Source: Cohnella sp. SGD-V74
GTDB lineage: Bacteria > Bacillota > Bacilli > Paenibacillales > Paenibacillaceae
DNA length: 64,000 nt
Assembly (NCBI RefSeq): GCF_003001675.1
Contig: NZ_PVYW01000001.1
Location: forward strand, 124,001-188,000
Direction of reading: 5' to 3'
Position numbers and translations under genes: made by a program. The notes under the pieces are model-generated. The model did not search any database and had not been told where the DNA came from. It saw nothing but the letters and a program-made list of their open reading frames with translations. Shown here in pieces: positions 12,991 through 38,793 of the stretch (within the stretch, counting starts at the first letter, position 1; every line of letters begins with the position of its first letter).

Positions 12991-13201
12991 CTATGGCCAT
13001 TATCCCGTTCACTCAGAATAACCGGTCCGACAACCTCTCTCTATTTTGACGCTTACGACCACTATCCCTTTCACTCAGAAACAGGAGGTAAATGACTTCC
13101 TTCCTCTGTGTCTTCTGCCCATTATCCCGTTCGCTCAGAACAGTCCGGCAGAGAACTTCCTTCTTTCTGTACCTTATATCCATTATCCCATTCACTCAGA
13201 A
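12991..13201 (+). repeat. Intergenic repeat family, locus 1 left array (4 copies, 60-bp period)
   Basis: Four copies of a 30-bp motif start at 12991, 13051, 13111 and 13171. The best-kept part is CCATTATCCC, then 5 variable bases, then CTCAGAA. Spacers of 30 bp between copies resemble each other only loosely (CTTCC/CTTTCTGT-like). All copies read rightward. The array lies between the converging nagZ and ABC-2 permease genes, where no gene is expected. Confidence 0.85.
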
Positions 13202-13400
13202 ATGGTATCGTCCGAAGTAGTCGCTATCCGCAACTCCATGTTTCTCTTTCCAATTCCATAGGCGTTTCTGCTCAAGGCTGATTTCCATTTTCTTCAGAAG
13301 GTAGCATAAACAAAAGAGTAAACGATCTTTGAATCTCGGAGACATTTCCCATAGCTACGCTAGTCAGAAAGTCAGATATTCATCAACAAAAAAACGAGTT
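13202..13400. other. Gap between the two halves of repeat locus 1
   Basis: About 200 bases lie between inward-facing repeat arrays. I see no open frame with a ribosome site, no tRNA and no clear hairpin terminator here. Confidence 0.5.
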
Positions 13401-13490
13401 CTGAGACATGGGGATAATGGCCATAGGAGCGCTGAGCTACCTGCAACGTGGGCGAGAGCCTGAGGCATGGGGATAATGGCCATAGGTGGG
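13401..13490 (-). repeat. Intergenic repeat family, locus 1 right copies (2, inverted)
   Basis: Two copies in the opposite orientation start at 13401 and 13460 (plus strand CTGAG, variable bases, GGGGATAATGGCCATAGG). They are 59 bp apart and face the left array at 12991-13201. Together the locus is an inverted pair of arrays about 100-200 bp apart, close to the 3' end of the ABC-2 permease gene. Confidence 0.85.
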
Positions 13491-35495: not shown

Positions 35496-35774
35496 CTATC
35501 TCCCCGAGTGCGCATCCCCGTCCTCCAGCCGGTACACCTTCGCATCGTCCAGCCGGACCAGCACGACGTCGGTTCCGATCTTGACGATGTTCCGCCATGG
35601 AATAACGACGTCATTGCCCCCGCCAAACATCCCGAACAGCCTCGTCGAAGTCGGCACCACAATCGAATCGATGCGCCCCTGCCGCAAATCAAGCTCCAGA
35701 TCGCTCACCTGCCCGAGCTTCTTCCCGTCGACGATGTTGATTACGTCCTTCGTCTGAAAATCCGATATTTTCAT
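35496..35774 (-). CDS. ylmC: YlmC/YmxH PRC-barrel sporulation protein
   Basis: The 92-residue protein holds a PRC-barrel (GKKLGQVSDLELDLRQGRID near residue 18 and VIPWRNIVKIGTDVVLV near 60). This is the YlmC/YmxH pattern. ATG 35774 follows GGGGG. It heads the ylm operon, although Bacillus places ylmA before it. Function unknown. Confidence 0.87.
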   Translation of the reverse strand: MKISDFQTKDVINIVDGKKLGQVSDLELDLRQGRIDSIVVPTSTRLFGMFGGGNDVVIPWRNIVKIGTDVVLVRLDDAKVYRLEDGDAHSGR

Positions 35775-35879
35775 CCGTTCACGCCCCCAGTCCGCCCCGG
35801 GCACTCGTACCCTGCTATTAAATATATGATCCTCCTGGGAAAAATGTACGATGCCCCTTCATTCTCTCGCATTTTCTTG

Positions 35880-36048
35880 CCTTACAGCCATTATCCCGTT
35901 CGCTCAGTTAGCCAGCCCTATCGGCGGCGCCTTATTTCACTCGCCTGGCTCCTATCGCCATTATCCCGTTCCTTCAGGACACCACACTGCGGCGCAACTC
36001 ATGAGCTCTTTTTTTCTCCTTACGGCCATTATCCCCTTGACTCAGTGA
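35880..36048 (+). repeat. Intergenic repeat family, locus 2 left array (3 copies)
   Basis: Copies start near 35881, 35951 and 36019. Each has CCATTATCCC and then CTCAG (the middle one has TTCAG). Spacing is about 70 and 68 bp, unlike the exact 60 bp at locus 1. All read rightward, toward the IS1595-like gene. The gap 35775-36384 between the divergent ylmC and IS1595-like genes holds these repeats and AT-rich sequence, with no other gene seen. Confidence 0.85.
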
Positions 36049-36252: not shown

Positions 36253-36282
36253 TAGATGCCCACTATCCCATCGGCTCAGAAT
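36253..36282 (+). repeat. Intergenic repeat family, single diverged copy
   Basis: AGATGCCCACTATCCCATCGG then CTCAGAATC is a weaker copy about 100 bp upstream of the IS1595-like gene. It is inverted relative to the copy at 37437 beyond the gene's 3' end. Confidence 0.75.
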
Positions 36283-36311: not shown

Positions 36312-36366
36312 GCACTTGAAAAACTAGAAAAAATAGTATATTCTAAAACAAGAACAAACGTTCGCG
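36312..36366 (+). promoter_or_regulatory. Promoter with LexA-like (SOS) box
   Basis: TTGAAA, a 17-base spacer and TATTCT form a plausible sigma-A promoter, and GAAC-AAAC-GTTC lies at 36352-36363. The 14-base block differs from the Bacillus consensus CGAAC-N4-GTTCG only at the first base (A for C). It sits where a repressor would block initiation. The IS1595-like ATG is 22 bases downstream, behind GGGGAGGG. Confidence 0.65.
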
Positions 36367-36384
36367 AAAGGGGAGGGTTAGGGA

Positions 36385-37308
36385 ATGGAAAACGGCGTAA
36401 CTTTCGAGCAATTTTGCGACAAATTTAAGGATGAACAATCTTGCATCCAAGCCTTGTTTGCTGCGCGTTGGCCGCATGGATTCCGTTGTCCGCAATGCTC
36501 TCACCCGCATTTCTATGAGATTCGGACACGACGCCTGCCCTTATACGAGTGCCGTTCCTGTCGAGTGCAAACCTCGCTAATTACCGGCACAATCATGGAA
36601 GGCAGCCGCACACCTCTCCGCTTATGGTTCCAGGCTATCTTCCTTCATGCCCGCCCGCGGGGCATCAGCGCGTTAAGACTCGCCGAAATCATCGGGACAA
36701 CTTATAAAACAGCCTGGCTTATCTGCCAAAAAATACGACAAGCCATGTCTACGGCCGATTCCAAGGAGCTTCTGGGCGGATTCGTGCGAATCAATTGCGG
36801 CGTTTACGGCCGCCCTTACAATCCGACCGTATTTCGCCATCCGCAGGAACAGCCTTTGCTTGCAGCGGCAACACTAGACGACAACGGGCAATTTTCTTAC
36901 GTGAAAATCAAGCAGGTCCCCGACAACTATTTGATTCACGACCGGATTACGAACGGGGGCAAGCACCATTTTGTGGACCACCATGTCTCCCCCGATGCGA
37001 AAGACGTTCGCGCCGTTATTTTGAGATTCAGCGGCGATCGTTACTGGCCGCTAATTGAGCTGTGCAAGCGTGCAAGCAACTGGATCAATTATACGTTTAG
37101 CGGAATCGGACCCAAGCATCTGCAATCCTATCTTGACCAGTTCTGTTTCGGCGTGAACAATCTCGACAGGCCCTCCAGCCTGTTCCTCCATCTGCTTCAA
37201 TGCGCCGTCTCATCAACCGCCGTGACCTACCCTCAGTTGACCAGCCGTATCGACCACTCCGACAAACACAAACTCATCTACAACAAGTTGCTTAAAGAAG
37301 CCGTTTAA
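36385..37308 (+). CDS. IS1595-family-like protein, apparently lacking catalytic residues
   Basis: The 307-residue protein begins with the transposase zinc-ribbon of IS1595 elements: C35-x2-C38 (CPQC) and C56-x2-C59 (CRSC). A helix-turn-helix-like region follows (about 92-120), and then an ISXO2-like domain (about 131-270). That domain keeps late features such as SGIGPKHLQSYLDQFCF. The place of the first catalytic acidic pair reads GFVRINCGVYG instead of the usual VEVDETYIGG, and I find no obvious second Asp or final Glu. It is an intact frame with good codon choice, so it looks maintained, not decaying. It is preceded by a LexA-like box and bracketed by repeats. Function unknown; DNA binding is likely. 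Confidence 0.75.
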   Translation: MENGVTFEQFCDKFKDEQSCIQALFAARWPHGFRCPQCSHPHFYEIRTRRLPLYECRSCRVQTSLITGTIMEGSRTPLRLWFQAIFLHARPRGISALRLAEIIGTTYKTAWLICQKIRQAMSTADSKELLGGFVRINCGVYGRPYNPTVFRHPQEQPLLAAATLDDNGQFSYVKIKQVPDNYLIHDRITNGGKHHFVDHHVSPDAKDVRAVILRFSGDRYWPLIELCKRASNWINYTFSGIGPKHLQSYLDQFCFGVNNLDRPSSLFLHLLQCAVSSTAVTYPQLTSRIDHSDKHKLIYNKLLKEAV

Positions 37309-37436
37309 ACCTTCCTTTCTCTCTTCGAATTCTAACCATCACTTGTTCCGAGGGTGACTGGGTTTATTTCCTGCATTTATAGGTATGAGTTACCTTTCTG
37401 CTCCGCCAACCCTTTTGAAGAAAATGCTGAGCTCCT

Positions 37437-37467
37437 GAGCCAAGGGGATAATGGCTATAAGGGCCGA
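37437..37467 (-). repeat. Intergenic repeat family, locus 2 right copy 1 (inverted)
   Basis: Plus-strand CTGAGCCAAGGGGATAATGG then CTATAAGG is the inverted counterpart of the copy at 36253, so the two could be ends of one element enclosing the IS1595-like gene (about 1.2 kb). Confidence 0.8.
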
Positions 37468-37516
37468 GATGAGCTACATGAGCCTGAGCGGCTAGATGGC
37501 CTGAGAGCCTGTGGGG

Positions 37517-37548
37517 CTTGAGGACTTGAGGACTTGAGGACTTGAGGA
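37517..37548. repeat. 8-bp tandem repeat CTTGAGGA, four copies
   Basis: Four perfect CTTGAGGA units in a row lie in the non-coding gap between the IS1595-like gene and sigG. The surrounding G/A-rich sequence holds looser CTGGA/CTTGA variants. The rest of 37309-37914 holds repeat copies but no gene I can support. Confidence 0.8.
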
Positions 37549-37800: not shown

Positions 37801-37832
37801 TCTGAGTCGACGGGATAATGGCTATAAGAGAG
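37801..37832 (-). repeat. Intergenic repeat family, locus 2 right copy 2 (inverted)
   Basis: Plus-strand TTCTGAGTCGACGGGATAATG then GCTATAAG is a well-kept inverted copy about 85 bases past the end of sigG. Confidence 0.8.
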
Positions 37833-37914: not shown

Positions 37915-38697
37915 TCAGGTTTTGACGTGCTTCTGCATTTGTTGTATGGCCGACTTCTCGAGGCGGGAAACCTGGGCTTGCGAGATGCCGATCTCGTCGG
38001 CGACTTCCATCTGGGTTTTGCCTTCGAAGAACCTCATGGACAAGATCATTTTTTCGCGGTCGTTAAGCTTTCTCATCGCTTCGCGCAGAGCGATCTCCTC
38101 GATCCACTGAATGTCCTTGTTGCGTTCGTCGCTGATCTGATCCATCACGAAGATCGGGTCTCCTCCGTCGTGATAGATCGGCTCGAACAAAGACACGGGA
38201 TCTTGGATGGCGTCCAAAGCGAACACGATGTCTTCCTTCGGTACGTTCAGCACTTCCGATATTTCCAGGATGGTCGGTTCCCTGGAGTGCTGATTCGTCA
38301 GTTGATCCCGGACCTGCAGCGCTTTGTAGGCAATATCTCTGAGGCTTCGGGATACGCGGATCGGGTTGTTATCCCTGAGATAGCGGCGGATCTCTCCGAT
38401 GATCATCGGGACGGCGTAAGTGGAAAACCGGACGTTCTGGCTCAGATCGAAATTGTCGATCGCCTTCATCAGTCCGATGCAGCCGACCTGGAAAAGGTCG
38501 TCCACGAATTCTCCGCGATTGTTAAATCGCTGAATTACGCTGAGTACGAGCCGCAAGTTGCCATTCACTAATTTTTCCCTGGCGGAAATCTCTCCACGGG
38601 TTTGCAGAGCGAGAAACAACTCCCTCATTTCGGCATTGGTGAGGACAGGCAGCTTTGAGGTGTCCACTCCACAAATCTCCACTTTGTTACGGGTCAA
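37915..38697 (-). CDS. sigG: RNA polymerase sigma-G (forespore)
   Basis: Sigma-G drives late forespore transcription. RNKVEICGVDTSKLP at the N-terminus is the SigG signature, and region 2 (VNGNLRLVLSVIQRFNNRGE, then DDLFQVGCIGLMKAIDNFD) and region 4.2 (MEVADEIGISQAQVSRLEKSA) are intact. TTG 38697 sits 7 bases behind GGAGGA and gives 260 residues, the same as Bacillus SigG; upstream Mets are unsupported. It follows sigE with a short gap. Confidence 0.95.
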   Translation of the reverse strand: MTRNKVEICGVDTSKLPVLTNAEMRELFLALQTRGEISAREKLVNGNLRLVLSVIQRFNNRGEFVDDLFQVGCIGLMKAIDNFDLSQNVRFSTYAVPMIIGEIRRYLRDNNPIRVSRSLRDIAYKALQVRDQLTNQHSREPTILEISEVLNVPKEDIVFALDAIQDPVSLFEPIYHDGGDPIFVMDQISDERNKDIQWIEEIALREAMRKLNDREKMILSMRFFEGKTQMEVADEIGISQAQVSRLEKSAIQQMQKHVKT

Positions 38698-38730
38698 AGG
38701 CAATTCCTCCCGGGGAGCAGCATTAATGTA

Positions 38731-38759
38731 AAGTATCTCCGGGAAGGGGGTTTTTATTC
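38731..38759 (-). promoter_or_regulatory. Candidate sigma-F/G promoter of sigG
   Basis: On the minus strand GAATA and GATACTT are spaced about 17 bases apart, close to the forespore promoter pattern (GNATA and CATNNTA). The site lies between sigE and sigG, about 35 bases before the sigG start. Confidence 0.4.
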
Positions 38760-38793
38760 CCATGGACAAGAACCCCGAATTTTCTTACAATTT

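Follow-up and report, generated by a model that had tools for sequence, protein, structure and literature searches.

The locus and its features

The window analysed here is a stretch of 64,000 nucleotides from Cohnella sp. SGD-V74 (contig NZ_PVYW01000001.1, positions 124,001 to 188,000). Between its ylmC and sigG genes lies an open reading frame that is intact, as an initial annotation made from the sequence had described; it starts with ATG and encodes 307 amino acids, and its product is related to the IS1595 transposases. The gene stands behind a LexA-type box and is flanked on both sides by outward-facing arrays of a short bipartite repeat, CTGA-N6-GGGATA (consensus CTGAGCGAAGGGGATAATGG). 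These cognate arrays, which the initial annotation missed, are the main feature of the locus and the strongest evidence on the role of the protein. The features, with positions in the window, are as follows.

36385–37308, plus strand: gene of the DDE-less IS1595-like protein
35883–35907, minus strand: left-array unit 1 (CTGAGCGAACGGGATAATGG...)
35953–35977, minus strand: left-array unit 2 (CTGAAGGAACGGGATAATGG)
36021–36045, minus strand: left-array unit 3
36255–36279, minus strand: left-array unit 4, degenerate (GGGATAGTGG)
37435–37459, plus strand: right-array unit 1
37802–37826, plus strand: right-array unit 2
36316–36344, plus strand: promoter-like pair, TTGAAA-17-TATTCT (at chance level by itself)
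36352–36363, plus strand: LexA-type box GAACAAACGTTC (GAAC-N4-GTTC), just 3' of the promoter-like pair and at the expected transcription start
35496–35804, minus strand: flanking gene ylmC (NCBIfam TIGR02888, YlmC/YmxH; synteny)
37915–38769, minus strand: flanking sporulation sigma-factor gene sigG (NCBIfam TIGR02850, SigG; synteny)

The NCBIfam matches on either side confirm the ylmC-sigG setting that had been noted for the gene.

Repeat arrays flanking the gene

Four units, one of them degenerate, lie to the left of the gene on the minus strand and two to the right on the plus strand. ylmC and the gene diverge, with the left array between their starts, and the right one stops beside the 3' end of sigG; a short tandem repeat of GGACTTGA is also present in the right flank, at 37514–37545. 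The pattern GGGATAATGGC-N(0-2)-TAAG is found only six times in the 8.24 Mb of the Cohnella sp. SGD-V74 genome, four times at the gene and twice at a paralogue (C4), and the pattern CTGAG-N5-GGGATAATGG-N3-TA, with two mismatches permitted, occurs 37 times compared with none for a reversed-pattern control.

The same layout is seen at homologue loci. Within 700 nucleotides of the gene in the 61 distinct loci that have full flanks (L076 and L082 were excluded because their flanks are short), CTGA-N6-GGGAT[AT] occurs 263 times facing outward and never facing inward; outward units are present on at least one side in all 61 and on both sides in 55. The six-base spacer is strict, with counts of 263 for N6, 5 for N5, 6 for N2 and none for N7. 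Units at the window gene finish with ATGG and those next to contig-end fragments of paralogues with nCGGCAAAA, which suggests that the word differs between protein subfamilies.

A second word, CTGA-N6-GGGATANCGGCAAAA, is present 162 times in the same genome (control 0), some of these next to the paralogue fragments at contig ends and others in gene-less arrays (for example L089–L097 and L098–L127). By eye, what looks like a leftover of the sequence coding for the protein's C-terminus lies in one of its arrays, at C3:373 kb, and the gene-less array at G000:C1:266193–266853 (L084, L098) interleaves units of both words.

Orphan arrays and their spacing

Arrays without the gene (orphan arrays) are found at other places, including one in the window, 22.9 kb upstream of the gene between genes for a beta-N-acetylhexosaminidase and an ABC-2 permease (12992–13484).

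12992–13199, minus strand: left half of the orphan array, units at 12992, 13054, 13114 and 13175
13401–13484, plus strand: right half of the orphan array, units at 13401 and 13460

The same intergenic site also carries an array in four other genomes (G006, G016, G023 and G028). Between species the local matches coincide with the units of about 25 nucleotides, the number of units and the spacers between them vary, and the remaining intergenic DNA hardly aligns; this pattern fits either selection on the units or their ongoing homogenisation. A second locus has the gene together with an array in G016, G023 and G010 and an array without the gene in G000, from which we infer that the gene was probably lost there. 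Repeats are dispersed in the genomes as inverted pairs, and among the listed places in 10 genomes the minus-strand units precede the plus-strand units in all 38 arrays that contain both orientations (the count leaves out the single site of G035 and one site of G006). Genes similar to the beta-N-acetylhexosaminidase (40–46% identity) lie near arrays elsewhere (L179, L180, L186 and L188), possibly by coincidence.

The spacing of orphan arrays relative to gene-bearing ones is recurrent. Ten genomes were counted: that of the window (positions 13484 to 36385 there), G003, G006, G010, G012, G013, G014, G016, G023 and G028. Of their 17 gene-bearing arrays, 14 have an orphan array 18–25 kb away, and of 24 distances to orphan arrays within 100 kb, 14 fall in this interval, compared with 1.7 expected if they were uniform. 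Several of the 14 are orthologous, and judged by their flanking genes they represent about five independent loci. A constant 20-kb rule is rejected, as three of the 17 (G000-C4, G006-6342k and G012-C1) do not fit; outside this count, G033 has one fit and one misfit, and the listing for G031 and G002 has no such pattern.

In a hand count, first-word units are clustered in one stretch of about 400–530 kb in each of four genomes: G006 (2.03–2.45 Mb, 40 of 52 sites), G016 (0.39–0.79 Mb, 15 of 15), G013 (4.30–4.83 Mb, 17 of 18) and G023 (4.20–4.62 Mb, 21 of 28). Placed by hand, the cluster in these four genomes lies at about 0.75–0.77 of the distance between dnaA and the pole opposite it, and a terminus domain is rejected on this ground, provided that the terminus lies opposite dnaA.

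The protein and the loss of its catalytic residues

The protein retains the DNA-binding parts of an IS1595 transposase and the fold of its catalytic domain, and lacks the residues of the catalytic set.

36427–36570, plus strand: zinc ribbon, residues 15–62 (C35, C38, C56, C59; CPQC/CRSC), Pfam
36670–36765, plus strand: helix-turn-helix-like region (TYKTAW), residues 96–127 (helices 96–103 and 107–127 in an AlphaFold2 model)
36775–37167, plus strand: RNase H-like domain, residues 131–261, without the D-D-N-K catalytic set
36793–36795, plus strand: Asn137 codon; the residue aligns with the first catalytic Asp in IS1595 transposases

The zinc ribbon that the initial annotation recognised is a match to Pfam Zn_ribbon_IS1595 (PF12760; E-value 2.7e-12). 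All four of its cysteines are completely conserved in the closest homologues (the best 120 of 717 found) and in all 77 rows of an alignment. T106, Y107, K108 and W111 of the helix-turn-helix-like region are likewise invariant among the 120, and Y107, K108 and W111 in the 77 rows. A C-terminal KHLQ-YLDEF-like motif is present, and the predicted structure retains the RNase H-like fold. The Pfam IS1595 DDE domain, which has a cut-off of 27 bits, scores 14.2 and covers only residues 227–256, and the NCBIfam IS1595 score of 73.1 is just below its cut-off of 75. A Foldseek comparison against the PDB gave no match at E 0.001 or better, PADLOC and Rfam gave no matches, and phage records gave four, all weak.

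The motif GFVRINCGVYG (residues 132–142) had been singled out as standing where active IS1595 proteins have a D-E pair, with no clear D or E after it, and the observation holds. Asn137 aligns with an Asp in all eight of the annotated, canonical IS1595 transposases compared; the second catalytic Asp and the N-x-K pair are also missing, about 20 alignment columns being absent after the second Asp. None of the 120 closest homologues has D or E at the Asn137 column, and none has an acid at both Asp positions. Of 63 distinct loci, 19 have an acid at the first position and seven at the second, so that loss of the D in every member is rejected, and none has both; the full D-D-N-K set was found in no row examined. 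From the alignments, the protein is of IS1595 lineage, with its catalytic D, D and N-x-K positions lost and its DNA-binding parts retained. Because no acid pair occurs in any of the 120 homologues or 63 loci, the loss is common to the homologues examined, and a domestication event local to the ylmC-sigG locus is rejected. The proposal of a tamed transposase made in the initial annotation survives as regards catalytic loss, the retained RNase H-like fold, synteny, purifying selection and the LexA-type box, and fails as regards a local origin.

A LexA-type box upstream of the gene

The box GAAC-N4-GTTC following a promoter-like pair is positioned as had been reported, but neither element is significant in the window, where one LexA-type box is found and 1.59 are expected, and two promoter-like pairs are found and 2.6 expected. 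Significance of the box from the window alone is accordingly rejected, and its weight comes from its conservation across homologue loci. Of 62 distinct loci, 58 have the core GAACRNRYGTTY in the 160 nucleotides before the gene start (it is missing from L021, L022, L037 and L146; L082 was skipped because of its short flank), with a background of 0.006 per 181 nucleotides. Controls gave no match in the 181 nucleotides downstream and none within the gene; the opposite strand of the upstream stretch gave 17, because the motif is nearly palindromic. Many of the homologue loci have a second LexA-type box about 28 nucleotides upstream. The lexA promoter of the Cohnella sp. SGD-V74 genome itself has several GAAC-N4-GTTY boxes, and the gene's box fits the Firmicutes LexA consensus CGAACRNRYGTTYC given in PMC2248561, as expected of a promoter in the LexA (SOS) regulon. 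LexA control of the gene is well predicted, because the box recurs upstream of homologues and in the lexA promoter and fits the consensus.

Orthologues and selection

In the ten highest-scoring other genomes the best match to the protein (L009–L018, 56–82% identity; L016 and L018 also appear as L074 and L075) always lies between ylmC and sigG. An eleventh genome with an orthologue in this place is that of Cohnella kolymensis (L076 and the fragment L082), and in Cohnella panacarvi (L083) the gene is absent and the ylmC-sigG gap is about 110 bp. The rates of nonsynonymous (dN) and synonymous (dS) substitution relative to the nearest orthologue are 0.11 and 2.33; their ratio is about 0.05, and synonymous sites are close to saturated. 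Among the 15 pairs listed of 55, 11 have saturated synonymous sites and the other four have finite ratios of 0.05, 0.06, 0.09 and 0.13. By these estimates the gene is under purifying selection. The Cohnella sp. SGD-V74 genome has 14 matches to the protein. Besides the gene itself and the full-length C4 paralogue (62% identity), four contig ends carry N-terminal fragments, five carry C-terminal ones, and three further matches are weaker and partial.

Proposed role and rival explanations

We propose, with a probability of roughly 0.6, that the gene encodes a disarmed transposase that is released from LexA after DNA damage and likely binds the CTGA-N6-GGGATA arrays on both sides of it. What the sequence shows is that the protein has lost its catalytic residues and conserved its DNA-binding parts, that the box is present, that the arrays are strictly oriented with a strict six-base spacing, and that the gene shares its ylmC-sigG position with its orthologues and is under purifying selection; every step beyond this we infer. 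LexA would repress the gene until DNA damage lifts the repression, and the protein would then bind the units, whose two halves would be one helical turn apart, a distance suited to one protein in contact with a single face of the helix. Protein copies on the left half-array may pair with those on the right as transposon ends do, giving a synapse that is unable to cut. During the SOS response such a complex could clamp or loop the DNA, both at its own locus and at orphan arrays such as the one 22.9 kb upstream, and could also feed back on the gene's own promoter, which is located between the half-arrays. If binding and induction hold, the system offers a natural test of the use of a non-cutting transposase, and a readable code linking protein subfamilies to repeat words. 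A further-reaching version, which we consider distinctly unlikely, is a chromosome-organising system in which the SOS-induced protein floods the arrays and pairs the gene-bearing array with its partner about 20 kb off, closing a chromosome loop; if true, an SOS-switched architectural clamp would have arisen from the end-pairing machinery of a transposon.

The chief rival, which has the smaller share of probability but a real one, is that protein and arrays are still mobile in the manner of TnpA-REP and REPINs, either through an unrecognised active site or with the protein as the end-binding partner of another enzyme, and that the SOS box times their movement. Multiple mobile copies had been named in the initial annotation as a point against a tamed transposase, and here the result differs from its proposal: besides the paralogues in the window's own genome, the clan has dispersed multi-copy members, including, among 18 elements fetched from G031, 16 that are about 90% identical and have differing flanks (L128–L131, L134–L145). 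The 162 occurrences of the second word and the apparent coding remnant seen by eye in one orphan array point the same way, as do the known SOS-controlled transposase genes of ISCR (PMC13393415). Against mobility, no row examined has the D-D-N-K set; the 16 G031 elements have D at the first catalytic position and not at the second, one has an internal stop, and when aligned they show, by eye, neither crisp ends nor target duplications. In Cohnella, moreover, the gene and several orphan arrays keep orthologous sites. A canonical IS1595 that moves the arrays in trans is unsupported in the window's own genome and in G006, neither of which has a match to the DDE_Tnp_IS1595 domain (14 of 37 genomes have none), and the 10 loci fetched for this domain in the genus contain no repeat unit, although a canonical first-Asp motif was recognised in only three of them.

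The placement of the left array between the divergent ylmC and gene starts, and of the right array beside the sigG 3' end, would suit an ordinary local transcription regulator whose operators serve only ylmC, sigG or the gene itself. We think this unlikely, as orphan arrays occur at other, gene-less loci and homologues at further genomic sites have arrays laid out around them in the same way. The missing catalytic residues could mark a dead, decaying insertion sequence with chance or residual end repeats, an explanation that is hardly credible for an intact reading frame with a dN/dS of about 0.05, near-saturated synonymous sites and shared synteny, and with units conserved where the remaining intergenic DNA barely aligns; a simple dead element is rejected on the synteny, the purifying selection, and the conserved box and oriented arrays.

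Comparison with known systems

LexA control of a transposase promoter is shown for ISCR rcr in PMC13393415, and the window gene is similar in being of transposase type and behind a LexA operator, here a predicted LexA-type box. The ISCR transposase is a different one, and arrays of the kind found in the window go unmentioned in the abstract of that paper.

The protein shares with IS1595 the zinc ribbon, the helix-turn-helix-like region, the RNase H-like fold and the C-terminal motif, and differs in lacking D-D-N-K and a stretch of the alignment beyond the second Asp, and in its LexA-type box. IS1595 insertion sequences have a single terminal repeat pair, whereas here there are several units per end. 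MatP/matS-like systems likewise combine one DNA-binding protein with a site of its own that recurs across a few hundred kilobases; in the system described here the sites form inverted arrays, one of which contains the gene, and the protein descends from a transposase. Among the matches listed in a search of the open-access literature, we found no paper on this repeat-protein pair or on a DDE-less IS1595 clan with arrays.

TnpA-REP (RAYT) is the best-known bacterial domesticated transposase kept with its own repeats, and its gene is itself flanked by them. The genes at our homologue loci are likewise flanked by their own repeats, and both systems have a transposase-derived protein with cognate short dispersed repeats. 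TnpA-REP is transposase-derived and still cuts DNA (PMC8266576), has matching short repeats scattered through the genome (PMC8266576, PMC8049555), and has REPINs that persist as intragenomic populations (PMC8049555). TnpA-REP is an HUH single-strand endonuclease, whereas the window protein has an RNase H-like DDE fold without the catalytic set, and a Pfam scan of it to E 1 returned four families, none of them HUH/Y1. In the window a two-part 20-mer is repeated in tandem, in arrays that face outward, and the gene follows a LexA-type box. The system resembles TnpA-REP and its REPINs by layout, not by protein.
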